Positions 4,510 through 27,718 of a stretch of 64,000 bases of DNA are shown piece after piece; position 1 is the stretch's first letter, and each line of letters starts with the position of its first letter. Source of the stretch: Thermophilibacter immobilis (lineage in GTDB: Bacteria > Actinomycetota > Coriobacteriia > Coriobacteriales > Atopobiaceae); contig NZ_CP063767.1 in NCBI RefSeq assembly GCF_015277515.1, positions 1,488,001 to 1,552,000 of the forward strand. Direction: 5' to 3'. The position numbers and the translations under genes were made by a program. The notes below the pieces were generated by a model. The model was not told the DNA's origin. It saw nothing but the letters and a program-made list of their open reading frames with translations, and made no database searches.

Positions 4510-4546
4510 CTCTGTGGCCCCGGGACCCTCCTCGCGTCGCGTGGCG

Positions 4547-11987: not shown

Positions 11988-12572
11988 CTACGAGCGATAC
12001 ACGACGCCCTCGGCCACGTGCGAAGCGGCCTCGTCGCCGGCAAGACGACGGACGAGCTCGAGGCCAAAGTCCATGGCCGTGGCCGCGCCCTGGCTCGTAA
12101 CCAGGTTGCCGTCGACTACGACGGGCTCGTCGGCCACGAGCTCGGCACCGTGCTCGGAAAGCACGTGCTGAAAGCCCGGATTGGCCGTCGCACGACGTCC
12201 CTTGAGCAGGCCCAGCTCGGCCAGGATCGACGGGGCCGCACAGATGGCCGCGATGTCGGCGCCACGCGAGGAAAACGAGACGAGCGCCTCGCAGAGCGGC
12301 GCGCAGGCGCGCAGGTTGGGCGTCCCGGGGATACCTCCAGGCAGAACGAGCAGGTCGTAGTCATCAAACGAGAAGCCCTCGTCGAAGATCGTGCGATCGC
12401 AGACGATGGTCACCTCGTGTGACGACGTGACCTGCCGCTCTCTCGTGATTGACACGGTGTCGCAGCTCACCCCCGCGCGAAAGAGCACATCTACGATCGT
12501 GAGCCCCTCGACCTCCTCGAGCCCCTCGGCGATGAAGACGGCCACGCGCTTGTCGCTTGCCTTCTTGAACAT
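11988..12572 (-). CDS. DJ-1/PfpI (ThiJ) family protein
   Basis: A 194-residue glutamine-amidotransferase-like protein of the DJ-1 branch. The start MFKKASDKRVAVFIAEG (12572) sits behind an excellent GGAGGAGG. The nucleophile elbow 'IAAICAAPSILAELGLL' carries the conserved Cys, 'FIAEGLEEVEGLTIVDVL' carries the Glu that stabilises it, and 'LLVLPGGIPGTPNL' and 'VTSQGAATAMDFGLELV' are the other family blocks. Homologues act in glyoxal detoxification, protein or nucleotide deglycation, or as stress chaperones. It follows the PTS IIA gene, but a terminator lies between them, so it is probably its own unit. Confidence 0.88.
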   Translation of the reverse strand: MFKKASDKRVAVFIAEGLEEVEGLTIVDVLFRAGVSCDTVSITRERQVTSSHEVTIVCDRTIFDEGFSFDDYDLLVLPGGIPGTPNLRACAPLCEALVSFSSRGADIAAICAAPSILAELGLLKGRRATANPGFQHVLSEHGAELVADEPVVVDGNLVTSQGAATAMDFGLELVRRLAGDEAASHVAEGVVYRS

Positions 12573-12584
12573 GAGAAACCTCCT

Positions 12585-12634
12585 CCTTTGAAAAGAAACC
12601 CCACCGACGAATGCCGGAGGGGTCCCTCGTCGGT
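12585..12634 (-). terminator. Rho-independent terminator after the PTS IIA gene
   Basis: Arms ACCGACGA (12603-12610) and TCGTCGGT (12627-12634) form a perfect 8-bp stem. Read on the minus strand it is followed by GGGGTTTCTTTTC. It ends the long minus-strand operon that begins at 25.86 kb. Confidence 0.75.
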
Positions 12635-12652
12635 CGATGCGCAGAGCTAGAG

Positions 12653-13111
12653 CTACTCCTCGTCGATGCCCGCGTTGATGGCGCCGGCGATGGCCTGGGC
12701 GTCGTCGGAGCCGCGCACGAGACTCTTGAAGTCGTCCTTCATGAGCAGGACGGCGGTCCTGGAGAGGAGCTTGATGTGCGTGGTGCCGGCCTCGCCCTCG
12801 GGGACGAGCAGTGATATCGCAATATCCACGGGCTTGTCGTCGAAGCTCGGCCACTCGAGCGGGTGGTCGTTCTTGACCACGATGACCGCGGCACGCTTGA
12901 TAGCGGCGTCCTTGGCGTGAGGCACCGCAAAGCCATCGGTCATGCCCGTCTCGCCCATCTCCTCGCGGGCGAGAAAGGCAGCGTAGACGGCATTGGCGTT
13001 ATCGGTGACACCCAGCGCGGCGGCGCGATCGGAGATGAAGCGCAGCACGTTCTCGCGCGTGTCGATGCTCTGCTTGACGAAGACGTTTTCTTCCTTGACG
13101 AAGTCGCTCAC
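12653..13111 (-). CDS. PTS fructose-type EIIA component
   Basis: Phosphocarrier that takes phosphate from HPr and passes it to EIIB. It has 152 residues. The phosphorylated His lies in 'DGFAVPHAKD', and 'VDIAISLLVPEGEAGTTHIKLLSRTAVLL' is the second family block. The GTG start (13111) sits behind AAAGGGG. It is detached from its likely IIB and IIC partners by nine genes but on the same strand, inside one probable transcription unit ending in the terminator at 12.6 kb. EIIA-Ntr (PtsN-like) is an alternative, but no rpoN-linked context is present. Confidence 0.85.
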   Translation of the reverse strand: MSDFVKEENVFVKQSIDTRENVLRFISDRAAALGVTDNANAVYAAFLAREEMGETGMTDGFAVPHAKDAAIKRAAVIVVKNDHPLEWPSFDDKPVDIAISLLVPEGEAGTTHIKLLSRTAVLLMKDDFKSLVRGSDDAQAIAGAINAGIDEE

Positions 13112-13165
13112 GTGGATCCCCTTTGCTGTACGGTAAGACGCCCCATCAGGCGTCGCGTCTGCTGT

Positions 13166-13212
13166 GCACTGCCATGATAGCCGTTAGCGCCATCTCGGTT
13201 GAGGGGCAGTGC
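13166..13212. other. Inverted repeat in the MFS-to-IIA gap
   Basis: GCACTGCC (13166-13173) pairs perfectly with GGCAGTGC (13205-13212) across a 31-bp loop, inside the 151-bp gap between the MFS gene and the IIA gene. There is no U-run directly after it on either strand, so it looks more like an RNA-processing or attenuating stem than a terminator. Confidence 0.45.
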
Positions 13213-13262
13213 GGCGCACATTCGGATTTTACCTTTTTTGCCTGGGCGCACTTCCTCGCACC

Positions 13263-14477
13263 TCACAGCGCCCGCGCCACCGCGACGCTCGCCGCGCCCA
13301 TGAGCGCCATGACGAGCAGCGCGGGCACGTAGGAGCCCGCGGCCGCCGAGAGCAGCCCCGTCCCCCACGAGCCGACGAGGGAGGCGAAGACGCTGTAGGT
13401 GTTCACGAGGGCCATGTTCTGCGCCATGCCCCGCTGTCCCCACCGCGTCCGCGTCACGAAGGGCATGCTCACCACCGCGGCCCCCCAGCTCACCCCCGTG
13501 AGCAGGCACGCGACTGCCTGGAGGGCAAGCGACCCCGTCGCCAGCGAGAAGATCATGGCCACGGGGCCCGCCAGGCCAAGCGCCCCGACGCCCCTCATCG
13601 TGCGGGAGCGGCCGAGGCGGTCGAGCGCCGCGCCTCCCCCGAGGCGTCCCAGCCCGCTGCCGACGTTGACGCACCCTATGACGAGAGCGGCCTCCAGATC
13701 GCTCGCGCCCAGGGAGAGCGGGAGCTCCCTCCCGATGCCCGTGACGCCCATGCCGACGCACCCCAAGAGGAACAGGAAGGCATAGAGCAAATAGAACGTG
13801 CGGTCGCGCAGCATGGCGGCGGCTCCCTGCTCGGCGGGCGCGGACTTCGCAGGCGTTCTCGGCCCGGAGGGGCTCGGGGGCCCCGGGGCGGCCCGCCGCC
13901 CCTCGTCCGTAGGAGGCCTCATCACGACGGCCGCCGCGAGCGCGAGGGCCGCGAGAGCCACCCCCGACCCCCTGATGACCACGCGCCAGTCGAGGAGGGC
14001 GTAGAGGTGGGTGACGAGCGGGCCGAGGACGAATCCCCCCGACCCGAAGCCCATGAGGCAGATTCCCTGGGCCAGGCCGACTCGGTCAGGGAACCACGAG
14101 GTGACCGTCGGGATGACGATGTTGTAGACGATGCCGATCCCCGCGCTCGCCGTCACGCCGTAGGTCGCGCACACCACGAGCAGACCGGAGGCCCCGTCTA
14201 CCGCGGAGGTCCCCCAAAACCCCGCGGCGAGCAGGGCGGCGCCCAAGGCGAGCCCCCCTCGCTCCCATCCGCGGCGGACCAGCTCCCCCGAGACGATCCC
14301 CCCGACCGTGAAGGAGATGATCGAGAGGGCGAAGACGAGCGTCATGCTGGCCACGTCCCAGCCGAAGGTGCCCTTGAGCGGTGCCAGGAGGACCGAGTAC
14401 GCGTAGATGAGCCCCATGAACAGAAGGAGCGCGGCCCCCATGCCCAAGATGAGGGAGCGTCTTCTCGCAACGATCAC
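13263..14477 (-). CDS. MFS transporter, oxalate/formate-antiporter-like (OFA) family
   Basis: A 404-residue, about 12-helix membrane transporter. The N-terminal helix and 'GLIYAYSVLLAPLKGTFGW' followed by a hydrophobic second helix and 'RRGWERGG' fit the OFA/monocarboxylate branch of the major facilitator superfamily. 'NIVIPTVTSWFPDRVGLAQGICLMGFGSGGFV' is the typical loop. A long central cytoplasmic linker (about residues 190-215) is Pro/Arg-rich. Members move small organic acids such as oxalate, formate, pyruvate or lactate. Here the neighbouring acyl-CoA genes suggest a short carboxylic acid, which is inference. It lies 9 bp after the aldo-keto reductase gene. Confidence 0.8.
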   Translation of the reverse strand: MIVARRRSLILGMGAALLLFMGLIYAYSVLLAPLKGTFGWDVASMTLVFALSIISFTVGGIVSGELVRRGWERGGLALGAALLAAGFWGTSAVDGASGLLVVCATYGVTASAGIGIVYNIVIPTVTSWFPDRVGLAQGICLMGFGSGGFVLGPLVTHLYALLDWRVVIRGSGVALAALALAAAVVMRPPTDEGRRAAPGPPSPSGPRTPAKSAPAEQGAAAMLRDRTFYLLYAFLFLLGCVGMGVTGIGRELPLSLGASDLEAALVIGCVNVGSGLGRLGGGAALDRLGRSRTMRGVGALGLAGPVAMIFSLATGSLALQAVACLLTGVSWGAAVVSMPFVTRTRWGQRGMAQNMALVNTYSVFASLVGSWGTGLLSAAAGSYVPALLVMALMGAASVAVARAL

Positions 14478-14486
14478 GACCGCCCC

Positions 14487-15461
14487 CTACACCCCCGACT
14501 CGGCATGCGCCTGCGCCACGCGCACGGCCCACTCCTCGAGCCGGTCCGGGTGGAAGGTGTAGCCGTCCGTCGTGTCGAGGGCGTCAAGCACGGCCATGTC
14601 GGCCGCGTCGAGCTCGAAGTCGAAGACCTCGCTGTTGGACCTGATGCGCCCCGCGCGCGTCGACTTGGGCATCGTGGCGAACCCGCTCTGCAGCGCCCAG
14701 CGCACGCAGACCTGCCCGACGTCCTTGCCGAGGCGCTCGGCCATGGCGACGACCTCGGGGCTCCTGAAGAGCCTCCCGCGCCCGAGCGGCGCCCATGCCT
14801 CGAGCTGGACGCCGCGGGAGCGGCACCACGCCACGGTCTCGCGCTGCTGGTAGGTGGGGTTGAGCTCGATCTGGTCGACCTGCGGCACCACGCTCGCGCC
14901 CTCGAGCAGGGCCTCCAGATGGGGCACGAGGAAGTTGGACACGCCGATGGCGCGCACGCGCCCCGCGGCGTAGAGCTCCTCGAACGCCCGCCAGCTGTCC
15001 CGGACGCGCTCGCGCCACTCGCCCTCGTGGCCTCCCACCTTGGGCCAGTGGATGAGGTAGAGGTCGAGATAGTCGCAGCCCAGGTCGGCGCAGGAGCGCT
15101 CGAAGGCGGTCAGCGCGCCCTCGTAGCCCTGCTCGTCGTTTCTGAGCTTGCTCGTGACGAAGAGCTCGCCGCGGGCGACCCCGGAGGCGGCGATGGCACG
15201 CCCCACCATCTTCTCGTTGCCGTACTGAGCGGCCGTGTCGATGTGCCTGAAGCCGAGGTCGAGGGCGGAGCGCACGGCTCTCTCCCCCGCCTCGTCGGGG
15301 GCGATCATGTAGGTGCCGAACCCCAGGCACGGCAGCTCGACGCCGTTGGCGAGGACGTAGCGGTCGCACTTCCCCGCGAGGCGCACGCGCGGCAGGAGGC
15401 GCCCGGCGGGATCCGCGCCGGCGACGTCGACGGGACGTATGGAGCGGGCAGAGACGCTCAT
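14487..15461 (-). CDS. Aldo/keto reductase
   Basis: A 324-residue NAD(P)H-dependent (beta/alpha)8 oxidoreductase. The start at MSVSARSIRP (15461) follows GAAAGGAG. The catalytic tetrad is visible: Asp and Tyr in 'HIDTAAQYGNE', Lys in 'LFVTSKL', His in 'YLIHWPK'. 'IGVSNFLVPHLEALLE' and 'LGRGRLFRSPEV' are standard later blocks, and 'PKSTRAGRIRSNSEVFDFEL' contains the cofactor-binding K-S-x-x-x-x-R-I. It belongs to the 2,5-diketogluconate-reductase/YvgN-like branch. An extra 45 residues precede the barrel. Its substrate is probably an aldehyde or ketone made by the same operon. Confidence 0.88.
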   Translation of the reverse strand: MSVSARSIRPVDVAGADPAGRLLPRVRLAGKCDRYVLANGVELPCLGFGTYMIAPDEAGERAVRSALDLGFRHIDTAAQYGNEKMVGRAIAASGVARGELFVTSKLRNDEQGYEGALTAFERSCADLGCDYLDLYLIHWPKVGGHEGEWRERVRDSWRAFEELYAAGRVRAIGVSNFLVPHLEALLEGASVVPQVDQIELNPTYQQRETVAWCRSRGVQLEAWAPLGRGRLFRSPEVVAMAERLGKDVGQVCVRWALQSGFATMPKSTRAGRIRSNSEVFDFELDAADMAVLDALDTTDGYTFHPDRLEEWAVRVAQAHAESGV

Positions 15462-15484
15462 GAAACTCCTTTCACAAAGGCGAC

Positions 15485-15517
15485 GGGCGCGGGGAGGCTG
15501 GTGACGGCCCCGCGCCC
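15485..15517. other. Strong intergenic stem between alcohol dehydrogenase and AKR genes
   Basis: GGGCGCGGGG (15485-15494) pairs perfectly with CCCCGCGCCC (15508-15517) over a 13-bp loop, in the 84-bp gap. The minus-strand sequence after the stem has only CGCCTTTG, a poor U-tract. It may attenuate or protect mRNA within the operon. Confidence 0.5.
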
Positions 15518-15545
15518 GCTTCACCTGAAACGACTCCTTCAGAGA

Positions 15546-16736
15546 CTAGCGTGCATCCCTCAGAATCTGCTCGATGTCCTCTACGTGCAGCTCCTTGAAG
15601 AAGCCGGCGTGATCACCGCCACGCGCGTCGACGGCGCCGACGGCCATCTCATGAATCTGCTCGTCGGTAGGATTGACGCCAAGCTCCTTGAGCGAGGTGG
15701 GCATGCCGATCGAATGGCACCACTGATCCCACGCCGCGATTCCTCGCAATCCGGTGGCGCGCGCGTCATGGAAGTCGTTTTCCACTCCAAAGACGTTGAC
15801 GCCAAACTGAGCGAAGCGCGCAGGGTCAACGTCAATCACGTACTTGGCCCAGCTCGACCAGATGGCAGTCAGGCCCGCACCGTGTGCGACGTCGAACAGG
15901 GCGCCAATCTCATGCTCAATGGCATGGCAGGCGAAGTCGCCGACGCGCCCGGTGCCCGTCAGGCCGCAATGAGAAAGAGAGCCAGCCCACATCAGGTTCG
16001 CACGAGCCGCATAGCTCTTCGGGTCGGCGAGGGCCTCGGGGACGGCGGTCTTGACGGTGCGCAGGAGCCCCTCACTCATGGCGTCGGTAAGCTCGACATG
16101 ATCGACCTTGGTGAAGTAGCGCTCCATCGTATGGAACATGATGTCAGCACCGGGAGCCGCGGTCTGATAGGCCGGCACCGAGTAGGTGAGCTCGGGATTC
16201 ATGATGGCGAAGAGGGGGCGACCGCACTCATGGTTGTATGAGCGCTTGAGCATCCGTTCGCCCAGGGTGTCGATGTTGATGACCGCAGAGTTGGAGGTCT
16301 CCGAACCCGTGCCAGCAAGCGTGGAGATGGCACCGAGCTTGGCGATCTTGTCCGTGCCCACCTTGCCGAGAAAGAGGTCCTCGAGGGCGAAGTCGTTGGC
16401 AAGGCCGTAGGCGATGGCCTTCGAGGAGTCGATCGCGGAGCCGCCGCCGATGGCGAGCACGAAGTCGACGCCCTCCTGGCGGGCGAGCTCGACTCCCCTC
16501 TTCACGAGCGAGAGGCGCGGGTTGGGCACGACGCCGTCAAGCTCGACGTAGGAGATGCCAGCGTCATCGAGGCCCTTCTCGACGCGGCCGAGCAGCCCAG
16601 TCGTGCGGACGTAGTCGCCCCCCCAGTGGATCAGGGCCTTGGTGCCGCCGTTTTCCTTGATGAGGCGACCGGCCTCGCCCTCGGTGTCCTTGCCGAACAC
16701 GACCTTGGTCGGTACGAGGTACTCAAAGTTAACCAT
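15546..16736 (-). CDS. Iron-containing alcohol dehydrogenase (BdhA/YqhD type)
   Basis: A 396-residue group III alcohol dehydrogenase, starting at MVNFEYLVPTKVVFGKDTE (16736) behind GGAAAGGA. The NAD(P) loop 'AIGGGSAIDSSKAIAY' and the metal ligands in 'PGADIMFHTMERYF', 'CHAIEHEIGALFDVAHGAGLTAI' (Asp and three His) are intact. Relatives reduce butyraldehyde, acetaldehyde, methylglyoxal or other aldehydes with NAD(P)H. In this operon it could dispose of reducing power as an alcohol. It is different in type from the FucO-like dehydrogenase at 53.1 kb and from the glycerol dehydrogenase at 62.6 kb. Confidence 0.9.
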   Translation of the reverse strand: MVNFEYLVPTKVVFGKDTEGEAGRLIKENGGTKALIHWGGDYVRTTGLLGRVEKGLDDAGISYVELDGVVPNPRLSLVKRGVELARQEGVDFVLAIGGGSAIDSSKAIAYGLANDFALEDLFLGKVGTDKIAKLGAISTLAGTGSETSNSAVINIDTLGERMLKRSYNHECGRPLFAIMNPELTYSVPAYQTAAPGADIMFHTMERYFTKVDHVELTDAMSEGLLRTVKTAVPEALADPKSYAARANLMWAGSLSHCGLTGTGRVGDFACHAIEHEIGALFDVAHGAGLTAIWSSWAKYVIDVDPARFAQFGVNVFGVENDFHDARATGLRGIAAWDQWCHSIGMPTSLKELGVNPTDEQIHEMAVGAVDARGGDHAGFFKELHVEDIEQILRDAR

Positions 16737-16819
16737 AGTAAAATCCTTTCCTAGATCCGGTAGTGGACGTGCGGCGGAGCGCCCGAGGGGTCGGACGCCG
16801 TGCGCGGCGACGGCGCGAA

Positions 16820-16855
16820 AGAGGCCTGGCGCCGCACGCGGCGGCAGGCCCCTCG
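16820..16855 (-). terminator. Strong hairpin after the thiolase gene
   Basis: On the minus strand GGGGCCTGCCGCCG and CGGCGCCAGGCCTC form a long GC-rich stem around CGTG, followed by TTTCGCG, six bases after the thiolase stop. The short U-run suggests partial termination or 3'-end stabilisation before the alcohol dehydrogenase gene. Confidence 0.5.
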
Positions 16856-16860
16856 CCCGG

Positions 16861-18078
16861 CTACTCCGCCGTGAAGTACATAGAGATGCCCTGGCCCCCG
16901 CCGATGCACATCGACACCATGGCATCGCGCTTCTCGGGGTGGCGGCGCGCGAGCTCATAGGCGCACTTGATGGCCAGAATCGTGCCAGTGGCACCAATCG
17001 GATGACCGAGAGAGATGCCTCCACCGTAGATGTTGACCCGCTCGTCGTCGAGACCGAGGTCACGCGTCACGGCGAGCGCCTGGGAGGCGAAGGCCTCGTT
17101 GATCTCGAAGAAGTCAATCTTGGTGAGGTCGAGGTCGAGCTGCTCGGCCAGCTTCCTGCTCGAGAAGTACGGCGAGTAGCCCATGAGCTCCGCATGGTAG
17201 CCAGCAACGGCGTGGCCGCGAATCGCGACCATGGGGGTGCAGCCGAGCTCGGCGGCCTTGGCGCGTGTCATGACGACCACCGCGGCCGCCGCGTCGTTAA
17301 GCGAGGAGGAGTTGGCGGCCGTGACGGTGCCCGTGCCGTCAGTGACGAAGCACGGCTTGAGCTTCGCGAGGCTCTCGACGGTAACGCCCTCGCGGGGCCC
17401 TTCGTCGGCATCGAAGACGGTGACGGAGCCCTTGCGGCCCCTGACCTCGACGGGGATAATCTCCTCGGAGAACACCCCGGCGGCGACGGCCGCCACGGCG
17501 CGCTGTTGGCTGCGGGCAGCAAAGCGGTCCTGCTCCTCGCGGCTCACGTTGAACTTTCGGGCCACGTTCTCGGCCGTGACGCCGTTGTGAGAGTGGTCGA
17601 GCGGCCAGGTGAGGATGTCGATGACGCCGTCCTCGAGCTGCTTGTGGCCCATGCGGGCTCCCCAGCGAGCACTGGGCACGTAGTAGGGCAGTTGCGAGAG
17701 GCTCTCGGAGCCACCGGCCACCACGACGTCGGCCGCTCCGGTCTGAATCTCCATGACGGCGTCGACGATCGACTGCAGGCCGCTGCCGCACTGGCGGTTG
17801 ACGGAGTAGGCGCAGGTCTCATCTGGCAGGCCAGCCTTGAGGCTGACGGCGCGCGCCAGAAAGCCATTCTCGCCCCAAGATCCGACCTGACCGACGATGA
17901 CCTCGTCGACAGATGCGGGCTTGACGCCGGCACGGGAGACGGCCTCGCGGACCACGAGGGCTCCCATGTCGATGGAGGAGACGGTCTTGAGGCTACCCCC
18001 GAACTTGCCGATCGGGGTGCGGGCCCCGGCGACGATGACGACGTCGTCGGGTCGCTTCTCAAAGGTGCGATTGCTCAT
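16861..18078 (-). CDS. Thiolase (acetyl-CoA C-acetyltransferase)
   Basis: Condenses two acetyl-CoA to acetoacetyl-CoA or runs in reverse. It has 405 residues, with the start at MSNRTFEKRPDDVVIVAGARTP (18078) behind GAAAGGAG. The nucleophile Cys is in 'NRQCGSGLQSI', the catalytic His in 'GGISLGHPIGATG', the second Cys in 'CIGGGQGISM', and 'EINEAFASQ' is present. Length and motifs fit the biosynthetic/degradative tetrameric thiolase II family. It stands 47 bp behind the 3-hydroxybutyryl-CoA dehydrogenase gene, the pairing used for acetoacetyl-CoA to 3-hydroxybutyryl-CoA interconversion. Confidence 0.94.
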   Translation of the reverse strand: MSNRTFEKRPDDVVIVAGARTPIGKFGGSLKTVSSIDMGALVVREAVSRAGVKPASVDEVIVGQVGSWGENGFLARAVSLKAGLPDETCAYSVNRQCGSGLQSIVDAVMEIQTGAADVVVAGGSESLSQLPYYVPSARWGARMGHKQLEDGVIDILTWPLDHSHNGVTAENVARKFNVSREEQDRFAARSQQRAVAAVAAGVFSEEIIPVEVRGRKGSVTVFDADEGPREGVTVESLAKLKPCFVTDGTGTVTAANSSSLNDAAAAVVVMTRAKAAELGCTPMVAIRGHAVAGYHAELMGYSPYFSSRKLAEQLDLDLTKIDFFEINEAFASQALAVTRDLGLDDERVNIYGGGISLGHPIGATGTILAIKCAYELARRHPEKRDAMVSMCIGGGQGISMYFTAE

Positions 18079-18125
18079 CGGTGATGCTCCTTTCGAAAGT
18101 GCGGAAGAGCGGAAGTCCCGTCTCC

Positions 18126-18974
18126 CTAGCGGTAGTCGTAGAAGCCGCGACCGGTCTTGCGACCCAGCCGGCCCTGGTCGACCATCTGTTTGAGCAGCGG
18201 GCACGGACGGTACTTCTCGTCCCCGAAGCTCTCGTAGAGACCAGACATCGTGGCCAAGACCACGTCGATGCCGGTGAAGTCCATGAGCTCGCAGGGCCCC
18301 ATGGGGTGGTTGCAGCCGAGCTTCATGCCCGCGTCCACGTCCTCGGGGGTGCAGCCCTCCATGACGAGGAAGGCGCCCTCGTTCTGGTACGGCACGATGA
18401 TGCGGTTGACGATGAACCCAGGCTGGTTGGGCGCGGATATGGACGTCTTGCCCAGGACGTCCGCCAGCTCGCGCGCGGATGCGAGTGCCTCGTCGGAGGT
18501 CTTCTTGCCCCGGATGAGCTCGACGAGTCTCATGACCGGCGCGGGATAGAAGAAGTGCATGCCCAAGACGTCAGCGGGACGGGTGGTCGCCGCCGCTATG
18601 TCATCTATGTTGATGCCGGAGGTGTTGGTGAGCAGGGTGGCCCCCGCGTCGGCGAACTCGTCCATCTTCTGGAACGTCGCGCGCTTGAAGTCGAGGCGCT
18701 CCGGCACGGCCTCTATCACGTGGGCGGCACCCGCGATGCGCGCGTAGTCGGTGGTGTAGGAGAGGCGCGCAAGAGTGGCGTCCGCGTCATCCTGCCCCAG
18801 CTTGCCCTTCTCGACCTTCTTTTGGAGGAGCTTTGCGACGAGGGCATGAGCCTTGTCGAGGGGCTCCTGGGCGACGTCGACCACCGTGACCTCCAGGCCA
18901 GACTGGGCGCACGCCTGGGCTATGCCTCCCCCCATGAGCCCGGAGCCAATGACTGCTACCTTTTTGTTGTCCAT
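18126..18974 (-). CDS. 3-hydroxybutyryl-CoA (3-hydroxyacyl-CoA) dehydrogenase
   Basis: Interconverts acetoacetyl-CoA and 3-hydroxybutyryl-CoA with NAD(P). It has 282 residues, the usual size for Hbd, starting MDNKKVAVIGSGLMGGGIAQ (18974), which holds the dinucleotide loop G-x-G-x-x-G. 'LTNTSGINIDDIA', the catalytic His of 'GMHFFYPAPVMRLVELI', 'QPGFIVNRIIVPYQNEG' and 'GCNHPMGPCELMDFTGID' are all conserved. No crotonase or butyryl-CoA dehydrogenase gene follows, so in this operon the enzyme more likely serves 3-hydroxybutyrate metabolism than butyrate formation. Confidence 0.95.
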   Translation of the reverse strand: MDNKKVAVIGSGLMGGGIAQACAQSGLEVTVVDVAQEPLDKAHALVAKLLQKKVEKGKLGQDDADATLARLSYTTDYARIAGAAHVIEAVPERLDFKRATFQKMDEFADAGATLLTNTSGINIDDIAAATTRPADVLGMHFFYPAPVMRLVELIRGKKTSDEALASARELADVLGKTSISAPNQPGFIVNRIIVPYQNEGAFLVMEGCTPEDVDAGMKLGCNHPMGPCELMDFTGIDVVLATMSGLYESFGDEKYRPCPLLKQMVDQGRLGRKTGRGFYDYR

Positions 18975-19017
18975 CGTTGTCCCTTTCTTTGTGTGAGGAT
19001 CTAACGGGTGGGGGTTC

Positions 19018-20613
19018 CTACGGGCGGGCGAAGCCTGCGGCCAGGCCACAGGGCCCGTCCGGGGCAAAGAGGGCGGAATCCATCTCCTTGAGGTGCGGGC
19101 TCACGATCGGCGCGAACCCCATCATGTCGAGGACCTGCGTCTGAAGGTCCACGCCAGGCGCGAGCTCGGTGAGCATGACGCCCTCGTCCACGAGCTCGAA
19201 GACGGCGCGCTCGGTGACCACGACGACGCGCTGGCCGCGGGCGCGGGCGTCCGGTCCGTTGAACGAGAGCTGCGCCACGTGAGAGACCATCTTCTTGATG
19301 GCCCCTTCACGCTCGATGGTGAGACGCCCGCCCTCGAAGCGGTAACGCGCGCCCTTGGCGGTAAACGTGCCAAGAAACACCACGATCTTGGCGTTCTGCG
19401 TGATGTCGACGAAACCTCCGGCACCGGCGCAGCGCTCCCCCATCTTGGTGGAGTTCACGTTGCCCTCGCCGTCAAGCTCGCCCATGCCCATGTAGGTCAC
19501 GTCGACGCCCGCCCCGTCGTAGTAGTCGAACTGCTCGGCGTGGCTCACCATGGCGAGCAGGTTCTGGCCGATCCCGAAGTCGACGCCGCCAAGCTGGACG
19601 CCGCCGTAGATGCCGCTCTCGACCGTGACCATCACCTTGTCGGAGAGACCCTCCTCGGCGACGACACGCCCCACCATGTCGTTGGGGATGCCGGTGCCGA
19701 GGTTGACCACGCAGCCTGGGTAGAGCTCCTGGCAGCCCCGGCGAGCAATGAGCTTGCGCTCGTTGAAGGGGGCGGGCTCCATCGAGGAGGAGGGCACGCG
19801 CAGCTGGCCCACGAAGGACGGATCGAAGTAGATCGAGGAGGTCATGCGATGATCCTCCTCGGGATCGGGACAGACCACGACCCGGTCGATGAAGACGCCC
19901 GGGACGGTCACCTCCTTAGGGTTGAGCGTGCCGATCTGGGCCACCTCACGGACCTGAGCGATGACCTGACCGCCGTAGCGCTTGGTGGCGAGAACCGCAC
20001 TCAAGACCTCGAGCTTCATGGCCTCGTCAGTTGTGGTGAGGTTGCCCATCTCGTCGCAGGTGGTGCCGCGGATGAGGCAGACGTCGAGGGGGACCTCGTG
20101 ATAGAGCAGGTATTCCTCTCCGTGAATGGTGATGACCTCAGAGATGTCAGGCAGCGCGCGCGTGCGCGCGTTCATCTTGCCGCCCTCGAGGCGCGGGTCG
20201 ATGAAGGTTCCCAGGCCCACCTTGCTCATCTTGCCCGGCAGCCCGCAGGCCATGGAACGGTAGAGCTGCGCGATCTGCCCTTGCGGCAGGCAGTAGGCCT
20301 CTACCTGGTCGTGGGCGATCATGTCCATCCACCTTGGCTGGAGGCCCCAGTGAGAGCCGATGATGCGCGTCACGAGGCCCTCGTGCGCGAGGTGCTGGAT
20401 GCCGCGTGCGCGGTCGGACTGGCCACAGGAGTGCAGCAGCGTGAGACCGCGAGGATGGCCTGTCTCGAGGAAGCGTCGCTCTATGGCCTTGAGGTTGGAC
20501 TCGGAGGCAGAGACGAGCGTCATGCCGATCGTGCAGAGGGTGGAGCCGTCGACGATGGAGGCCGCAGCCTCCTCGGGGGTGACGAAGACGGCCTTGAGGC
20601 TTGCGTCTGCCAT
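19018..20613 (-). CDS. Acyl-CoA:acetate / 3-ketoacid CoA-transferase (fused alpha-beta subunits)
   Basis: Transfers CoA between short acyl-CoAs and free acids. It has 531 residues with both subunit halves in one chain, as in YdiF and propionate CoA-transferase. The first half includes 'DGSTLCTIGMTLVSASE' and 'SHWGLQPRWMDMI'. The catalytic glutamate that forms the glutamyl-CoA intermediate is in 'VMVTVESGIYGGVQLGG', and 'NLGTGIPNDMVGRV' is the preceding Gly-rich loop. It starts 2 bp after the acyl-CoA ligase stop, so the two are tightly coupled, giving this unit two ways of activating an organic acid. Confidence 0.93.
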   Translation of the reverse strand: MADASLKAVFVTPEEAAASIVDGSTLCTIGMTLVSASESNLKAIERRFLETGHPRGLTLLHSCGQSDRARGIQHLAHEGLVTRIIGSHWGLQPRWMDMIAHDQVEAYCLPQGQIAQLYRSMACGLPGKMSKVGLGTFIDPRLEGGKMNARTRALPDISEVITIHGEEYLLYHEVPLDVCLIRGTTCDEMGNLTTTDEAMKLEVLSAVLATKRYGGQVIAQVREVAQIGTLNPKEVTVPGVFIDRVVVCPDPEEDHRMTSSIYFDPSFVGQLRVPSSSMEPAPFNERKLIARRGCQELYPGCVVNLGTGIPNDMVGRVVAEEGLSDKVMVTVESGIYGGVQLGGVDFGIGQNLLAMVSHAEQFDYYDGAGVDVTYMGMGELDGEGNVNSTKMGERCAGAGGFVDITQNAKIVVFLGTFTAKGARYRFEGGRLTIEREGAIKKMVSHVAQLSFNGPDARARGQRVVVVTERAVFELVDEGVMLTELAPGVDLQTQVLDMMGFAPIVSPHLKEMDSALFAPDGPCGLAAGFARP

Positions 20614-20615
20614 GT

Positions 20616-22232
20616 CTAGCCTTCCTGTTCATGAGCGCTGAGCGAGGAGAGCATCAGATCGCGCACGGCCGCTCGGTCGGGCTTTTCGGCAGCGGTCTGC
20701 GGAATCTTCTTGACGAAGACCACGTGCGCGGGAATCTTGAAGCGAGCGATACGGCCCGCAAGCGCCCGGCGAACGCCCTCCTCGGTGGGCGAGCAGCCCA
20801 GAGCCGGTACGAGTGCGGCCACGGGCACCTCGCCATAGAGCTCGTGTGGGATTCCGGTCACGCAGGCGCCCGCGACGTCCGGCAGCTCGCAGAGGACCTC
20901 CTCGAGCTCCGAGCACCAGACCTTCTCGCCGCCGCGGTTGATCATGTCCTTCTTGCGGTCCACCACCCAGACCATGCCCTCCTCGTTGGCATGGGCCATG
21001 TCGCCGGTGGCGAGCCAGCCCTCGTCGTCGGGACCTCCCGCGGCTCCACCGTAGTAGCCCTGTGTGACGCAGGCCCCCCGCACGAGGAGCTCGCCGGTCT
21101 GCCCCGAGGCGACTTCGCGACCATCCTCGTCCACGATCTTGGCGTCCACGCCGGGGACGGGCTTTCCCGTAGCCCCCGCAAAGATCGACGTGGGCGCGTC
21201 GTAGGGAAAGAGCAGGGCGGGCGAGGAGGTCTCGGTCATGCCATAGACCACCTGAAAGCTCGCCGGGGGCATCCATGCGTGAAAGGCGCGCATCGTGGCA
21301 ACGGGCTCGTAGCTCGACCCGCTGAGCAGCGCCCGGACGCTCGGGAGCTCGGGGAACTCGTCCTTGAGCGCGAGGAGCTCGGCGAAGAAGGTCGGCGAGC
21401 CGTGCAGATACGTGATCTTCTCGTCGCGCACGCAGGCAAGCGTGCGACATGCGTCGAAGACGCGATGCAGATACGTGGTCGCACCCACGTAGAGGAACTG
21501 TACGAGCAGAGCGACAAGGCCCGTCACGTAGTAGATGGGAGTCGAGATGAGGCAGCGATCATACGGCGTGGTCCCCATGAGACGGGCGTAGATCATGGAG
21601 GCATGGCAGACGTTTGCGTTTGTAAGCACGACCCCCTTGCACGCTGAGGTAGTGCCACTCGTGAACATCATGATGGCGGGATCGTCCGACGTGCCGGCGG
21701 CCTCGCAGGGAAATCCTCCCAGACCGGAGAAACCGTAGTCCCCGGAGGCGCCACGGGTCCAGATGATGCGATCCGCCGCCAGAGGCAGACGCGCCCCCCA
21801 GCCCCCGAACTCCCCTCCCGCCACGAGCAGCGAGAGATCGGCCGCCTCCACGAGTGAGGCCACCTCGAGCACGCGATACTTGGTGGGCAGGGGCACGCAG
21901 ACGCCGGCAAGCTTGGAGACGGCAAAGAGCGCCACAACGAACTCGAGGTCGGCGTACATGAGCAGCCCCACGTGTGATCCGCGCGCCACGCCCAGCCATG
22001 CAAGATGGGAGGCAAGCGCGTCGACATGTCCGAGGAGCTGCGAGAAGGTCGTGGGCCTACCAGCGTCATCCACCACGGCCACGGCCTCGGGAGTACGACG
22101 TGCCGAGGCACGAAGCAGGTGATAGAGACTCGAAGGCATCTCGTCGAAGGTGTGAACCATGTGAGCGCCCCGAGCGTGGGGGCCCATGCCGCGCTGCAAC
22201 GCGCGGTTCCAGCAGACTGCACCGCTCATCAT
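20616..22232 (-). CDS. Class I adenylate-forming acyl-CoA synthetase
   Basis: Activates a carboxylic acid through an acyl-AMP to acyl-CoA. The 538-residue product starts at the ATG at 22232, whose A-T-G-A overlaps the glycerate kinase stop and follows GGGGGAG. Motifs: ATP loop 'MFTSGTTSACKGVVLTN', 'VYGMTETSSPA', 'GWLATGDMA', hinge 'DRKKDMINRGGEKVWCSELE'. The C-terminal lysine region reads 'PQTAAEKPDR' where most relatives have P-x-T-x-S-G-K, so the Lys is kept but the loop differs. The substrate is unknown; a short hydroxy or branched acid fits the neighbours. The start could alternatively be 22160 (MVHTFDEM). Confidence 0.85.
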   Translation of the reverse strand: MMSGAVCWNRALQRGMGPHARGAHMVHTFDEMPSSLYHLLRASARRTPEAVAVVDDAGRPTTFSQLLGHVDALASHLAWLGVARGSHVGLLMYADLEFVVALFAVSKLAGVCVPLPTKYRVLEVASLVEAADLSLLVAGGEFGGWGARLPLAADRIIWTRGASGDYGFSGLGGFPCEAAGTSDDPAIMMFTSGTTSACKGVVLTNANVCHASMIYARLMGTTPYDRCLISTPIYYVTGLVALLVQFLYVGATTYLHRVFDACRTLACVRDEKITYLHGSPTFFAELLALKDEFPELPSVRALLSGSSYEPVATMRAFHAWMPPASFQVVYGMTETSSPALLFPYDAPTSIFAGATGKPVPGVDAKIVDEDGREVASGQTGELLVRGACVTQGYYGGAAGGPDDEGWLATGDMAHANEEGMVWVVDRKKDMINRGGEKVWCSELEEVLCELPDVAGACVTGIPHELYGEVPVAALVPALGCSPTEEGVRRALAGRIARFKIPAHVVFVKKIPQTAAEKPDRAAVRDLMLSSLSAHEQEG

Positions 22233-23380
22233 GAGCACTCCCCCATTCCCCGTCCGAGAGCCAGAAGCGAGAAGGTCCGATCCGCCGCAAGCGCAAAGTT
22301 CCGTTCGGCATGGGAGAGAGCGTCAGCGACGCTGCCCGCGCCGATGGCAGTGGGTACGAGCGCGTCCACGCCCTGCGAGAGGAGCCCGAGGGCACCGGGG
22401 TCCATGCCGCCAACGATGGCCACGCACGTAACGCCCGCGGCACGACAACGTGTGGACACCCCGCTCACCACCTTTCCATGAGACGACTGGGAGTCCGCGT
22501 GACCCTCGCCGGTGATGCAGAGGTCAGCCCCCTCGAGAGCCGCGGTCAGGCCAACAAGGTCGAGCACCCAGTCGACGCCGGACACGACCTCGGCGCTCAA
22601 GAAGAGCCGCGCAGCGGCGGCGAGGCCCCCAGCAGCACCCATGCCAGGCTCTTGGGACACATCCACCCCAAAGGTGCGTGCGAGCACGTCGGCAAAAGAC
22701 GCCATGCCGTCCTCGAGCTCGCGAACCACAGCCGGACGAGCTCCCTTCTGCGGGGCGAAGACGCGCGTCGCTCCGCGAGGGCCCACAAGGGGATTGTCCA
22801 CGTCGCACATCACATGAAAGCGCGCCCGACCGAGGAGCCCGTCCATGCCCGAGACGTCAATCGATTCCACGCGGCCCAGGTCAGACCCAACGCCTGCCAG
22901 ATCCTCACCATCTGCGTCCAGGAAGCGTGCTCCGAGGGCGCGCATGCACCCCATCCCCGCATCGTTGGTCGCGGAGCCTCCGATGGCGATGGAGACGTCG
23001 GTCGCGCCGCGTGCGAGAGCGTCAGCTATGAGCTGACCCGTTCCGTAGCTGCTCGTGGCGAGCGGGTTGCGTTCGTCAGGGACGAGTAGGGGAAGCCCCG
23101 AGGCGGCGGCCATCTCGATGACGGCACGACCTTCGGGAAGCATCCCATAATGAGCACACACGCTGCGTCCGAGCGGATCGGACACCGCCACGTGGATGAA
23201 CTCTCCATCCGTTGCCGCCACGACAGCGTCGACTGTGCCCTCGCCGCCGTCAGCAACCTGAACGCACGTGCAGCTCACGGCCGGGAAGCGCACGCGCGCC
23301 GAGTGCACGAGAAGCTCGGCGGCGCGCCTAGACGAGATCGTCCCCTTGAACGAGTCGCATGCGAAGACAAAGCGGGCCAT
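22229..23380 (-). CDS. Glycerate kinase (GlxK/GarK family)
   Basis: Phosphorylates D-glycerate, in this family usually to 2-phosphoglycerate. It has 383 residues, the family's standard length. Conserved blocks are 'FVFACDSFKGTISS', 'VADGGEGTVDAVV', 'ASSGLPLL'-type sequence after 'VIEMAAASGL', 'IAIGGSATNDAGMGCMRALG', 'DVDNPLVGPRGATRVFAPQKGA', and 'LCITGEGHADSQSSHGKVV'. It begins 5 bp after the aldolase gene, so a three-carbon acid is probably made by the aldolase and reductase steps of this operon. No 2-hydroxy-3-oxopropionate reductase was seen beside it. Confidence 0.93.
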   Translation of the reverse strand: MARFVFACDSFKGTISSRRAAELLVHSARVRFPAVSCTCVQVADGGEGTVDAVVAATDGEFIHVAVSDPLGRSVCAHYGMLPEGRAVIEMAAASGLPLLVPDERNPLATSSYGTGQLIADALARGATDVSIAIGGSATNDAGMGCMRALGARFLDADGEDLAGVGSDLGRVESIDVSGMDGLLGRARFHVMCDVDNPLVGPRGATRVFAPQKGARPAVVRELEDGMASFADVLARTFGVDVSQEPGMGAAGGLAAAARLFLSAEVVSGVDWVLDLVGLTAALEGADLCITGEGHADSQSSHGKVVSGVSTRCRAAGVTCVAIVGGMDPGALGLLSQGVDALVPTAIGAGSVADALSHAERNFALAADRTFSLLALGRGMGECS

Positions 23381-23385
23381 GGGAG

Positions 23386-24276
23386 CTAGTCCGTCTCCTC
23401 GACGTGCTCTTCACTGAACTGGTAGCGGTCCGCAGAGCCGAAGAGGTGCATGTAGCGCGCGAGCCACGCGGAGGCCTTCTCCTCGGCATTCGTGGAGACA
23501 AAGAGGTAGTCGGGACGCTCCCTGTCGACTAGGAAGGCACGCACGGCCGAGACGTAGGCCGCTGAGTAGTCGGTCCACAGGTTGACCTTGTTGATGCCGC
23601 CCGCGACGGCCTTCTTGAAGTTCTCGTCACCGGCGCCAGACCCACCGTGCAGGACGAGCGGGTACCTCTCGCCCAGGGCCGCCTTAATCTCGGCGAGACG
23701 GGTGAAGTCGAGGTGCGGGACGTAGTCCGCGGGGTAGTTGCCGTGCGCGGTGCCGATGGCCACCGCCAGAGCGTCACACCCGGTGCGCTCGACGAACTCG
23801 ACGGCCATGTCGACCTTGGTGTACATGTCATCGGAGCGCCCGTCGCCGTCGGCCGCCTGGCCGACGTGGCCAAGTTCAGCCTCGACGGAGACGCCGTGAG
23901 CATGGGCGAACGCCACGACCTGCTGGACGCGGCGAATGTTTTCTTCGAAGGGGAGGCTGGAGGCGTCGCACATGACGCTCGAGAAGCCAGCCTTGATGCA
24001 GCGGCAGATGTCCTCGAACTCGGCACCGTGATCCAAGTTCAGGGCGACGGGAACGTTGAGGGGCTCGGCGAGGGCCCTGACCATGGGGGCGAAGGCCTCG
24101 GGAGTGGCATTGAGGTGCGCCTGTCGGGGAGAGACGTCAATGATGACGGCAGATTTGTTGGCCTGGGCCGCGGCGAGCGCAGCCTTGACCATGTTGAAGT
24201 CCGGGCAGTTCGGGGCGGGAACCGCGTAGCGGTTGACGCTTGCGTGCTGGAGCATTTCCTTCATGGAAACGTACAT
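23386..24276 (-). CDS. Class II ketose-bisphosphate aldolase (Fba/GatY-like)
   Basis: Zinc-dependent cleavage of a ketose (bis)phosphate to dihydroxyacetone phosphate and an aldehyde. It has 296 residues, with the start at MYVSMKEMLQHAS (24276) behind AAGGAGG. Zinc and catalytic residues lie in 'ALNLDHGAEFEDI' (D, H), 'VEAELGHVGQ' (E, H), 'VAIGTAHGNYP' (H) and 'LVLHGGSGAG' (H), with 'GGINKVNLWTD' for phosphate. It follows PTS IIC on the same strand, so it probably acts on the PTS-imported phosphorylated sugar. The position-specific residues do not tell fructose-bisphosphate from tagatose-bisphosphate or ulose phosphates. Confidence 0.9.
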   Translation of the reverse strand: MYVSMKEMLQHASVNRYAVPAPNCPDFNMVKAALAAAQANKSAVIIDVSPRQAHLNATPEAFAPMVRALAEPLNVPVALNLDHGAEFEDICRCIKAGFSSVMCDASSLPFEENIRRVQQVVAFAHAHGVSVEAELGHVGQAADGDGRSDDMYTKVDMAVEFVERTGCDALAVAIGTAHGNYPADYVPHLDFTRLAEIKAALGERYPLVLHGGSGAGDENFKKAVAGGINKVNLWTDYSAAYVSAVRAFLVDRERPDYLFVSTNAEEKASAWLARYMHLFGSADRYQFSEEHVEETD

Positions 24277-24370
24277 GTGTGAGTCCTCCTTGAATGCCTG
24301 ACTCGCCGGCATGAGCTGATGGGTCAGCTATAAAGACAAAGCGATGGAGCAGAAAAGCACGTGCAAGACG

Positions 24371-24394
24371 GGCGGGGAGGCGAGCCTCCCCGCC
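24371..24394. other. Perfect GC-rich stem between PTS IIC and aldolase genes
   Basis: GGCGGGGAGG (24371-24380) and CCTCCCCGCC (24385-24394) form a perfect 10-bp stem with a 4-base loop, 14 bp after the IIC stop. It lacks a proper U-tract on the minus strand, so mRNA stabilisation or attenuation between the PTS and enzyme genes is likelier than full termination. Confidence 0.55.
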
Positions 24395-24408
24395 CCGGCG
24401 AGTAAGGA

Positions 24409-25530
24409 CTAGCCGAGCAGCTGGTCGAGGACGCCGTTGCCAGCCATGTCGCCCTCTTCCGCGACGGGCTTGCGGAGGATGAAGTACAGGATGCCAGTGA
24501 CGGCCGCGCCGGCGAACCAGAACAAGACGAACTGGAGCGGGTTGCTCATCATCGGAATGACGAACACGCCACCGTGAACGGCCACGGACTCGAGCGCGAA
24601 GTAGCCGCACAGACCGCCCGAAATGGCACCACCAATCAGGCAGGGAACGAGGCAGCGCCACGTATCCTGCACGAGGAACGGAATGACGTACTCCTGGATG
24701 TAGCAGCATGCGAGCACGACGCCGGATAGCGTGGTGGAGCGCTCCTTCTCGGTAAACTTCTTCTTGCCGGTGAAGCGATCAATGACCTGGGCGAAGCAGA
24801 CGCCGAGCGGGTTCTGCATACCGCCACACATCTTGCAGGCGGCGGGCCCAAGGACGCCATCGGCGTTGAGTCCGTTGGCGACGAGGGCCACGGCCTTGGA
24901 GATCGGGCCGCCCTGGTCGGTGGACATGCCTGCACCGATAGCGGCGCCGAAGATGAAACCGCCCACGCCCTGGAGGTTCATGAGGGCACCCGTGATCAGG
25001 GTCATGAGCCAGCCGATGGGCACGCCGATGACGTACCACATGAGCAACGACGTCACGCCGGTGCCCACGACCGGAATGACCAGGATGGGAAAGACGGACT
25101 GCACGGAGCCTGGGACCTTCTTGGACCAGCTCTTGAGCAGGTTCACGATGTAGCCGGCCAGGATGCCTCCGATGAGAGCACCGAGGAAGCCCGCCTTAAT
25201 CGTGTTGGAGATGACGCCGACGGCAAATCCGGGAGCGAGACCGGGCTTGTCGGTCAGGGCGTAGGCGACGTAGGCTCCAATGATGGGCACGCTCACGTCA
25301 AAGATGGCGGCACCGATGGCATAGACGACCATTGCAAAGGAGTAGGCGGTGTACGTGAGCTCCTTCATGTCCGCAGCGATGTTGTAGCCGCCCATGGCCT
25401 TGGCAAGCCCCTCAAGCACGCCGCCACCGACGATGAACGGAATCATATAGGAGATACCAGTCAGAACGGCGTCCCACACGACGCGTCCCTGGCTCCTCTT
25501 CTTGGCATTCTTGCGCTGAATCTCAGCCAT
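24409..25530 (-). CDS. PTS fructose-type EIIC permease
   Basis: A 373-residue membrane channel of the fructose superfamily of PTS. It has about nine or ten hydrophobic segments, starting near 'AVLTGISYMIPFIVGGGVLEGLAKAM'. 'PGFAVGVISNTIKAGFLGALIGGILAGYIV' is the conserved substrate-region loop, and 'VFPILVIPVVGTGVTSLLMWYVIG' and 'GAAIGAGMSTDQGGPISKAV' are also family blocks. It is expressed without fused A or B domains. Its ATG shares a base with the IIB stop (TAATG), so the two are translated together. The IIA partner is probably the gene at 12.65-13.11 kb. Confidence 0.93.
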   Translation of the reverse strand: MAEIQRKNAKKRSQGRVVWDAVLTGISYMIPFIVGGGVLEGLAKAMGGYNIAADMKELTYTAYSFAMVVYAIGAAIFDVSVPIIGAYVAYALTDKPGLAPGFAVGVISNTIKAGFLGALIGGILAGYIVNLLKSWSKKVPGSVQSVFPILVIPVVGTGVTSLLMWYVIGVPIGWLMTLITGALMNLQGVGGFIFGAAIGAGMSTDQGGPISKAVALVANGLNADGVLGPAACKMCGGMQNPLGVCFAQVIDRFTGKKKFTEKERSTTLSGVVLACCYIQEYVIPFLVQDTWRCLVPCLIGGAISGGLCGYFALESVAVHGGVFVIPMMSNPLQFVLFWFAGAAVTGILYFILRKPVAEEGDMAGNGVLDQLLG

Positions 25531-25856
25531 TAGTCAATAGCCTCCAATACTTCGTCCACGACCGAAAGTGCGGTCTCCAGGGTCATGACCTCATTGGTCT
25601 TGCAGCTCAACGTGGGAATGGGCTCAAAGCGCTCCTTGTCCTTGATCTTCACGTCGGCTGCTATGATGGCCGCGTCCGCGCGGGCAAGGTCCTCGTCGGT
25701 GATGACGTTTTCGGCTCCGGTGGCACCCTGAGTCTCGATCTTGGCCTCGCACCCCCGCCTCTCGAGAGCCGTGGCGAGAGACTCAGCGGCCATGAAGGTG
25801 TGCGCAATGCCGATCTGGCATGCGGTCACGCCGACGATGAACTTCTTTCCTGCCAT
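25530..25856 (-). CDS. PTS fructose-type EIIB component
   Basis: A 108-residue phosphotransfer protein, starting MAGKKFIVGVTACQIGIAH (25856) behind GAGGAGGAAAA. The phosphorylated Cys is in 'TACQIGIAHTFMAAE'; the usual loop is T-A-C-P-T-G-I-A-H, so Gln-Ile replaces Pro-Thr after the Cys. 'KIETQGATGAENVITDEDL' and 'ADAAIIAADVKI' are standard. It is the first gene of the long minus-strand operon, with the AT-rich region 25857-26208 as its promoter. Confidence 0.92.
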   Translation of the reverse strand: MAGKKFIVGVTACQIGIAHTFMAAESLATALERRGCEAKIETQGATGAENVITDEDLARADAAIIAADVKIKDKERFEPIPTLSCKTNEVMTLETALSVVDEVLEAID

Positions 25857-26772: not shown

Positions 26773-26789
26773 GGAGGAGCCGCCGATCC

Positions 26790-27716: not shown

Positions 27717-27718
27717 GT

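Follow-up and report, generated by a model that had tools for sequence, protein, structure and literature searches.

A window of 64,000 nucleotides from Thermophilibacter immobilis (Atopobiaceae, phylum Actinomycetota; contig NZ_CP063767.1, positions 1,488,001 to 1,552,000; genome of 2.16 Mb in a single contig) contains an operon of twelve genes, all on the minus strand and running from 25856 to 12653, that joins a fructose-type phosphotransferase system (PTS), a class II aldolase and an iron-type alcohol dehydrogenase to the enzymes of a thiolase route. This gene unit is maintained in two unrelated bacterial phyla. Its acyl-CoA half likely works as does the deoxyribonate cluster of Klebsiella michiganensis, and we tentatively propose that both halves form one linked chain in which a keto sugar acid is cut twice. 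The mechanism is half recognised and half new, and a literature search, judged mostly from its result entries, found no publication describing the PTS-aldolase-thiolase set. A thiolase version of deoxyribonate chemistry would be seen in Atopobiaceae and Lachnospiraceae, with another type of dehydrogenase and joined to a sugar PTS and an aldolase; naming the substrate of the operon would name a nutrient used by gut bacteria.

Gene content of the operon

Gene calls and Pfam/NCBIfam matches bear out the order and the families that a first-pass annotation, made from the letters alone, had given for twelve same-strand genes: IIB, IIC, ALD, GK, ACS, CT, HBD, THL, ADH, AKR, MFS and IIA (window coordinates).

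25530..25856, minus: PTS IIB, fructose family (TIGR00829, 86.2 bits, over cut-off; AGGAGG before the ATG at 25856)
24409..25530, minus: PTS IIC, fructose family (TIGR01427, 244.7 bits, over cut-off)
23386..24276, minus: class II (PF01116) aldolase ALD with an SPRQ motif containing Arg51 (PF01116, 312.9 bits)
22229..23380, minus: glycerate kinase GK of the GarK/GlxK family (PF02595, 420.3 bits; TIGR00045, 397.5 bits)
20616..22232, minus: AMP-forming acyl-CoA ligase ACS (PF00501/PF13193)
19018..20613, minus: YdiF/FadX-type CoA-transferase CT (NF052271, 385.6 bits, under the cut-off of 750; E. coli YdiF 2ahu, E 4.2e-113)
18126..18974, minus: 3-hydroxybutyryl-CoA-dehydrogenase-type enzyme HBD (NF004474, 349.2 bits, under the cut-off of 408)
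16861..18078, minus: BktB-like thiolase THL (NF006552, 462.8 bits, under the cut-off of 565)
15546..16736, minus: iron-type alcohol dehydrogenase ADH, butanol-dehydrogenase/YqhD-like (PF00465/PF25137; 1vlj, E 2.1e-71)
14487..15461, minus: aldo-keto reductase AKR, DkgA-like, a variable member (PF00248; in 3 of 11 Atopobiaceae loci)
13263..14477, minus: MFS transporter, lactate/OFA-type, a variable member (NF049980, 192.3 bits, under the cut-off of 320)
12653..13111, minus: PTS IIA, fructose family (TIGR00848, 110.4 bits, over cut-off)

The genes are spaced by -4 to 151 bases, in keeping with the small gaps or overlaps described before, and the ATGA at 22229-22232 does serve as both the stop codon of GK and the start codon of ACS. 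The start of IIB is best placed at 25856, where AGGAGG stands upstream, and its reading frame stays open to 26081. GC content is 66.1% in the operon versus 66.4% in the rest of the window, while that of AKR plus MFS (0.72) lies above that of the operon (0.66). Neither a crotonase nor an acyl-CoA dehydrogenase is found among the twelve genes, so that the feature of a butyrate pathway is absent, as had been noted.

The acyl-CoA half and the deoxyribonate cluster of Klebsiella

From mutant fitness on deoxyribonate, Price et al. (2019; PMC6365646) propose a route in K. michiganensis by which a CoA synthetase and a CoA-transferase, together with a beta-hydroxyacyl-CoA dehydrogenase, thiolase and glycerate kinase, convert deoxyribonate to acetyl-CoA and glyceryl-CoA and then to 2-phosphoglycerate. 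By the authors' own account, the thiolase cleavage itself is without direct evidence; genetic evidence for oxidative deoxyribonate breakdown is given for four Proteobacteria, and deoxyribonate is present in human urine (PMC6365646). The gene set ACS, CT, dehydrogenase, THL and GK is a gene-for-gene match between the window operon and the K. michiganensis M5al cluster (BWI76_RS23695-RS23730), in which the CoA ligase, CoA-transferase, dehydrogenase, thiolase and glycerate kinase are common to both. A locus of Klebsiella oxytoca NBRC 105695 (L104) has the gene content and locus-tag order of that cluster (PMC6365646), with the lactonase included and an SDR dehydrogenase. By homology with this cluster and its mutant-fitness support, the T. 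immobilis enzymes are likely to carry out the same general type of reaction, in which a hydroxy acid is ligated to CoA, oxidised and thiolysed. The first-pass annotation had called the whole combination an unfamiliar pathway and had reserved GK for a three-carbon unit from the aldolase; the second half matches the deoxyribonate route, in which the K. michiganensis glycerate kinase serves the glyceryl unit left by thiolase cleavage rather than an aldolase fragment (PMC6365646).

The two clusters also differ. The window dehydrogenase is of the HBD type whereas that of Klebsiella is an SDR; the K. michiganensis cluster includes a lactonase and two MFS transporters, whereas none of the ten window operon proteins that were scanned with Pfam has an SGL domain (HBD and THL were assigned by NCBIfam) and the operon has one MFS transporter; and the window adds the PTS, aldolase and iron-type ADH, with uptake presumably through the PTS and not only through MFS. 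Because it is without an SDR dehydrogenase and without a lactonase and two MFS transporters, the window operon is taken not as a member of the K. michiganensis type but as a system that only works alike.

A maximum likelihood tree of 62 thiolases, from which the low-scoring Thiolase_C loci L198 and L201 were omitted, groups THL with the K. oxytoca copy (L204) and with those of a Clostridium magnum SDR/GK cluster and of Lachnospiraceae clusters in a clade of 42 rows (support 100/100). The clade excludes ten paralogous thiolases, drawn from three whole genomes (Klebsiella G942, C. magnum G943 and Lachnotalea G535). Sampling accounts for part of this grouping, because the rows of the clade came via a ligase search and the paralogues did not. 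In its own genome, THL is the sole strong thiolase match; the other Thiolase_C match covers part of the profile at 29.7 bits (cut-off 27).

These results bear on the earlier idea that sugar use is combined with oxidation of 3-hydroxybutyrate to acetyl-CoA. HBD, CT and the ligase are the enzyme types that such a route requires, and no crotonase accompanies them, but GK is found in all 11 Atopobiaceae clusters, THL groups with the thiolases of deoxyribonate-type clusters apart from the ten paralogues, and many relatives of the ligase lie in SDR clusters, some with GK. We consider 3-hydroxybutyrate oxidation very unlikely, and the acyl-CoA half probably serves another acid. Because of the thiolase grouping, a 2-deoxy-aldonate-like substrate, which would also explain GK, is likelier. 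Thus, in the scheme first put forward, the enzyme families fit an imported sugar that is phosphorylated and split and a hydroxy acid that is activated, oxidised and thiolysed, while 3-hydroxybutyrate as the acid is rated low on the thiolase tree, the GK linkage and the K. michiganensis match. An imported sugar conjugate, also suggested, is unlikely because no hydrolase is found among the twelve genes.

Conservation in Atopobiaceae and Clostridia

With ACS as the search marker, an orthologue of at least 50% identity was found in 11 of 140 Atopobiaceae genomes (6 of 35 genera, the T. immobilis genome counted), and the further matches listed were at most 35% identical. Among 396 genomes sampled evenly from the phylum there were 3 ACS matches at E 1e-100, all in Atopobiaceae. 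IIB-IIC-ALD, ACS-CT-HBD-THL-ADH and GK are kept in all 10 relatives fetched. With the window counted, IIA was found in 9 of the 11 loci, a full-length MFS gene inside the operon in three and AKR in three. GK lies within the cluster in 11/11 loci, at two positions: between ALD and ACS in 7 and downstream of ADH in 4. Presence of GK alone was dropped as proof of a pathway, given that 113 of the 140 Atopobiaceae genomes have a glycerate kinase. A second glycerate kinase match at G000:C1:1091714-1092220 spans only positions 202-370 of 372 and is possibly a remnant.

A search with a ligase profile brought up named relatives, some in Clostridia and some in other groups. Both halves are adjacent in nine Clostridia/Lachnospiraceae genomes in varying gene order: IIA-IIB-IIC-ALD adjoins ACS-CT-HBD-THL, with ADH divergent, in Clostridium sp. 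UBA701, Lachnospiraceae SUG64, Muricomes intestini, Lachnotalea glycerini (one locus, that of Lachnotalea, stops before the aldolase) and others, and the acyl-CoA half comes first in L045 and L048. Flanking genes of several loci were named by eye, save those checked by search. In a sample of one family, that of Muricomes, the aldolase profile matched 11 of 397 genomes at E 1e-105; seven of these 11 have PTS-aldolase-ADH, and the ligase module is adjacent in five, the other two being G640 and G685. The PTS/aldolase and acyl-CoA halves can occur apart, but their linkage is strong and outlasts rearrangement. The first-pass annotation had made conservation of its gene order a check on the operon. 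The junction between the aldolase side and the ligase side is kept across the Atopobiaceae loci and in Clostridia, and on this part the annotation therefore held; the exact GK-ACS junction varies, with GK behind ADH in 4 of 11 loci.

The dehydrogenase of the PTS-linked clusters

Dehydrogenase types were surveyed in 48 rows, namely loci with ACS, CT and THL or with IIC and ALD above set identity limits; the enterobacterial loci, with ACS about 30% identical, fell below the limit and were excluded from the counts. Four rows repeat genomes of others (L042, L043, L044 and L050 those of L034, L039, L033 and L040, respectively), leaving 44. HBD is present in 19 of 19 distinct PTS-plus-aldolase loci and SDR in 22 of the 25 other rows. 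Over all 48 rows, HBD accompanies PTS and aldolase in 23 (the 19 distinct loci) and stands without them in six, among them L048, which stops before the aldolase and was tallied as lacking PTS plus aldolase though PTS genes are visible; SDR occurs without PTS in those 22 rows and with PTS in one (L047, which also has HBD). Both types are found in five rows and neither in one. SDR is the dehydrogenase of K. michiganensis and of most non-PTS clusters.

In the HBD tree, which covered 8 of the 11 Atopobiaceae loci, the HBDs of the PTS-linked rows tried, that of the window included, and three without an adjacent PTS form one 20-row clade (100/97). At C3, HBD enzymes favour the configuration opposite to that favoured by SDR enzymes. 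The replacement of SDR by HBD therefore suggests that the PTS-linked version would handle the C3 epimer. G531 and G535 each have one HBD-type and one SDR-type copy, as if for two substrates. Between its aldolase and ligase, L047 (6780-9988) carries genes for a family III CoA-transferase, a MaoC dehydratase and an enoyl-CoA hydratase together with the SDR, which was assigned by similarity, as if it handled both C3 epimers.

The aldolase half

The window genome has six PF01116 matches, among which the operon aldolase belongs to a distinct clade. SPRQ occupies residues 49-52 in all 11 aligned members of this clade and in none of the remaining five class II aldolases that this genome encodes; it is visible in six of seven further Lachnospiraceae aldolases (L164-L170), the stretch not being readable in L166. 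Five solved bisphosphate aldolases have SEGA (three), SVGA or TPGT here. In class II aldolases the loop of residues 49-52 lies at the site where a bisphosphate substrate places its second phosphate, so that Arg51 may bind a carboxylate. Four inositol loci were fetched and the aldolase was seen in three; two of these three aldolases from iolB-bearing operons, presumed to be IolJ, also have Arg in the Arg51 column. IolJ of the inositol route, which presumably acts on 2-deoxy-5-keto-gluconate 6-phosphate, is a class II aldolase like ALD but forms a separate clade; no iolB/C/D/E/G partners are found among the twelve operon genes, and a divergent PfkB kinase gene beside the operon scores 74.1 bits against the iolC model (cut-off 300).

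The ydj cluster of E. coli (YdjI aldolase, YdjH kinase, YdjG reductase) shares with the window a class II aldolase, reductases or dehydrogenases and transporters, but has a kinase in place of the PTS and is without acyl-CoA genes. YdjI is 36% identical to ALD, and its RefSeq name, octuluronate-1-phosphate aldolase (C8), suggests that the aldolase family can act on C8 ketouronates. The AlphaFold2 model of ALD has a pLDDT of 84.9, and a PDB profile search with the aldolase alignment gave no match at E 1e-80. A sister aldolase group in the tree, with G-x-G-Q, is encoded next to other PTS genes in L171, L173 and L175 and next to ABC-transporter-like genes in L172. The aldolase genes of L171, L173 and L175 also adjoin dehydrogenase- or kinase-like genes (named by eye), another uncharacterised set.

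An ordinary hexose PTS operon, in which a ketose 1-phosphate would be converted by a kinase to a bisphosphate for the aldolase and the acyl-CoA genes would run in reverse as an electron sink making a hydroxy acid, seems most improbable. The window shares IIA, IIB and IIC with the fructose PTS family, which includes the 2-O-mannosyl-glycerate PTS; all three are fructose-type and over cut-off, and the divergent PfkB gene would supply a kinase nearby. The window subunits, however, are separate genes, and the operon is without a FruK-type kinase and without a glycosidase. The divergent kinase is of the KDG type, with no 1-phosphofructokinase model among its NCBIfam matches, and in six Clostridia loci (L045-L049, L052) the sequence fetched gave no match to it. 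The distinct clade of the operon aldolase among the six PF01116 matches also counts against a hexose operon, and an AMP-forming ligase and GK are, by our reasoning, ill-suited to a sink.

Proposed pathway and its alternatives

Based on these comparisons, we propose that the fructose-type PTS would import a keto sugar acid and, as expected from its family, phosphorylate the hydroxyl adjoining the keto group. The class II aldolase would split the ketose-1-phosphate into dihydroxyacetone phosphate (DHAP) and an oxo-acid; here the family is established and the acid substrate is suggested by Arg51. The iron-type ADH may then reduce the aldehyde to a 2-deoxy-aldonate-like 3-hydroxy acid, which ACS would convert to its CoA ester and HBD would oxidise at C3. 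Cleavage by THL would yield acetyl-CoA and glyceryl-CoA, from which CT would recover CoA and GK would form 2-phosphoglycerate, which enters glycolysis. The NADH spent by ADH would be regained in the oxidation of the acid. Malonate semialdehyde as an aldolase product feeding the thiolase was rejected by reasoning, in that ADH and HBD would undo each other.

Such a chain from keto sugar acid through two cuts (PTS, aldolase, ADH, ligase, HBD, thiolase, CT and GK) is economical: it balances NADH, gives each conserved gene a role and explains the association of HBD with the PTS. We put it forward as possible, with some reserve. Should every step belong to a single chain that ends in glycerate, its starting compound would be a C8 acid of the 7-deoxy-oct-2-ulosuronate type. 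The linear version, in which this C8 acid enters via the PTS and is split into DHAP and 2-deoxy-penturonate, the latter being reduced to a 2-deoxy-pentonate with C3 opposite to that of deoxyribonate and then converted to acetyl-CoA and glycerate, is unlikely in that precise form. If true, it implies a sugar acid new as a gut-bacterial nutrient; to our knowledge, the C8 acid has not been described as one.

Several observations weigh against a single chain. We know of no natural substrate of the required shape. The loci are mutually related, so that the counts are non-independent. In G640 the PTS-aldolase-ADH set is separate and the ligase module lies elsewhere in the genome, and in G685, which has the PTS-aldolase-ADH set, no ligase was found at E 1e-60. 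In 8 of 9 Clostridia loci the fetched stretches showed no GK next to the PTS; genome-wide, 10 of 11 Clostridia genomes that carry the PTS cluster have GK (the G750 copy with an internal stop) versus 11 of 20 others of the family, a weak excess (Fisher p 0.055) that is compatible with both one chain and two substrates and is proof of neither. The HBDs of the non-PTS clusters L062 and L075 fall outside the 20-row HBD clade. The thiolases of six loci with ACS, CT, SDR and THL (L063, L065, L066, L068, L069 and L072) fall outside the 42-row clade, as do four Bacillota rows; these six belong to a wider 51-row clade (99/96), from which the ten paralogues are again absent. YdjI of E. coli and one of the inositol-operon aldolases are without Arg51, which weakens Arg51 as proof of an acid substrate. 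Finally, L169 has SPRQ next to a mannose-type PTS and transketolase-like genes, a different sugar pathway with an aldolase of the same clade. The region 6254-13433 of L169 (G896) includes the transketolase-like genes, which are split, as well as an RpiB-like gene and, further off, an iron-type ADH, all named by eye.

The main alternative is that the operon serves two substrates. A 5-keto-hexonate of the fructuronate or tagaturonate type would be imported by the PTS and split by the aldolase to DHAP and tartronate semialdehyde, which the iron-type ADH would reduce to glycerate for conversion by GK to 2-phosphoglycerate, and a 2-deoxy-aldonate would be burned separately by the ligase, HBD and thiolase, both substrates leading to glycerate. 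This reading accounts for GK and for the modules lying apart in G640 and G685. Arg51 is as in two of the three inositol-operon aldolases, whose product is a three-carbon oxo-acid, and the KDG-type kinase adjoining the operon points to sugar acids. It leaves unexplained, however, why HBD and not SDR accompanies the PTS in all 19 loci and why the two modules are adjacent in two phyla, and we regard it as rather unlikely.

Operon boundaries and neighbouring genes

No sigma-70-like site was found before IIB in a promoter scan, no clear operator was seen in the leader when six upstream regions were aligned (60% mean identity), and the window has no Rfam match at gathering score and no tRNA. The pattern scan gave 8 terminator-like sites versus 7.8 from shuffles, which is no excess; two are in the operon, both within genes (GK and ADH), and no minus-strand site lies between two operon genes. 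The terminator that the first-pass annotation placed after IIA has part of its basis: 3' of IIA a hairpin is followed by TTTCTTTT, but the stretch, at -29.9 kcal/mol, has a z of -1.17 versus shuffles and is unlisted in the scan of the window. A terminator here is plausible only. The features flanking the operon are as follows.

12573..12652, minus: terminator-like hairpin with a T-rich tail (folding versus shuffles not significant)
11988..12572, minus: DJ-1 family protein with its own ribosome-binding site (TIGR01383, 165.9 bits)
26655..27716, plus: AEC-type permease, divergent neighbour (PF03547, 32.7 bits)
27575..28723, plus: PfkB kinase of the KDG-kinase type, divergent neighbour (NF041633, 249.6 bits, and NF041332, 163.8 bits, both under cut-off)

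Since its reading frame runs into that of the AEC gene, the PfkB gene may truly start downstream of 27575. The DJ-1 gene is next to the operon in 8 of the 11 Atopobiaceae loci and the AEC gene is a neighbour in 9, one of these being a 63-residue match; a KDG-kinase-like PfkB gene is near the operon in 11/11, divergent in nine. The divergent upstream genes also include one for an STM3941-family protein, and in L032 (G111, 2988-4541) a transposase-like gene, named by eye, lies immediately 5' of IIB.

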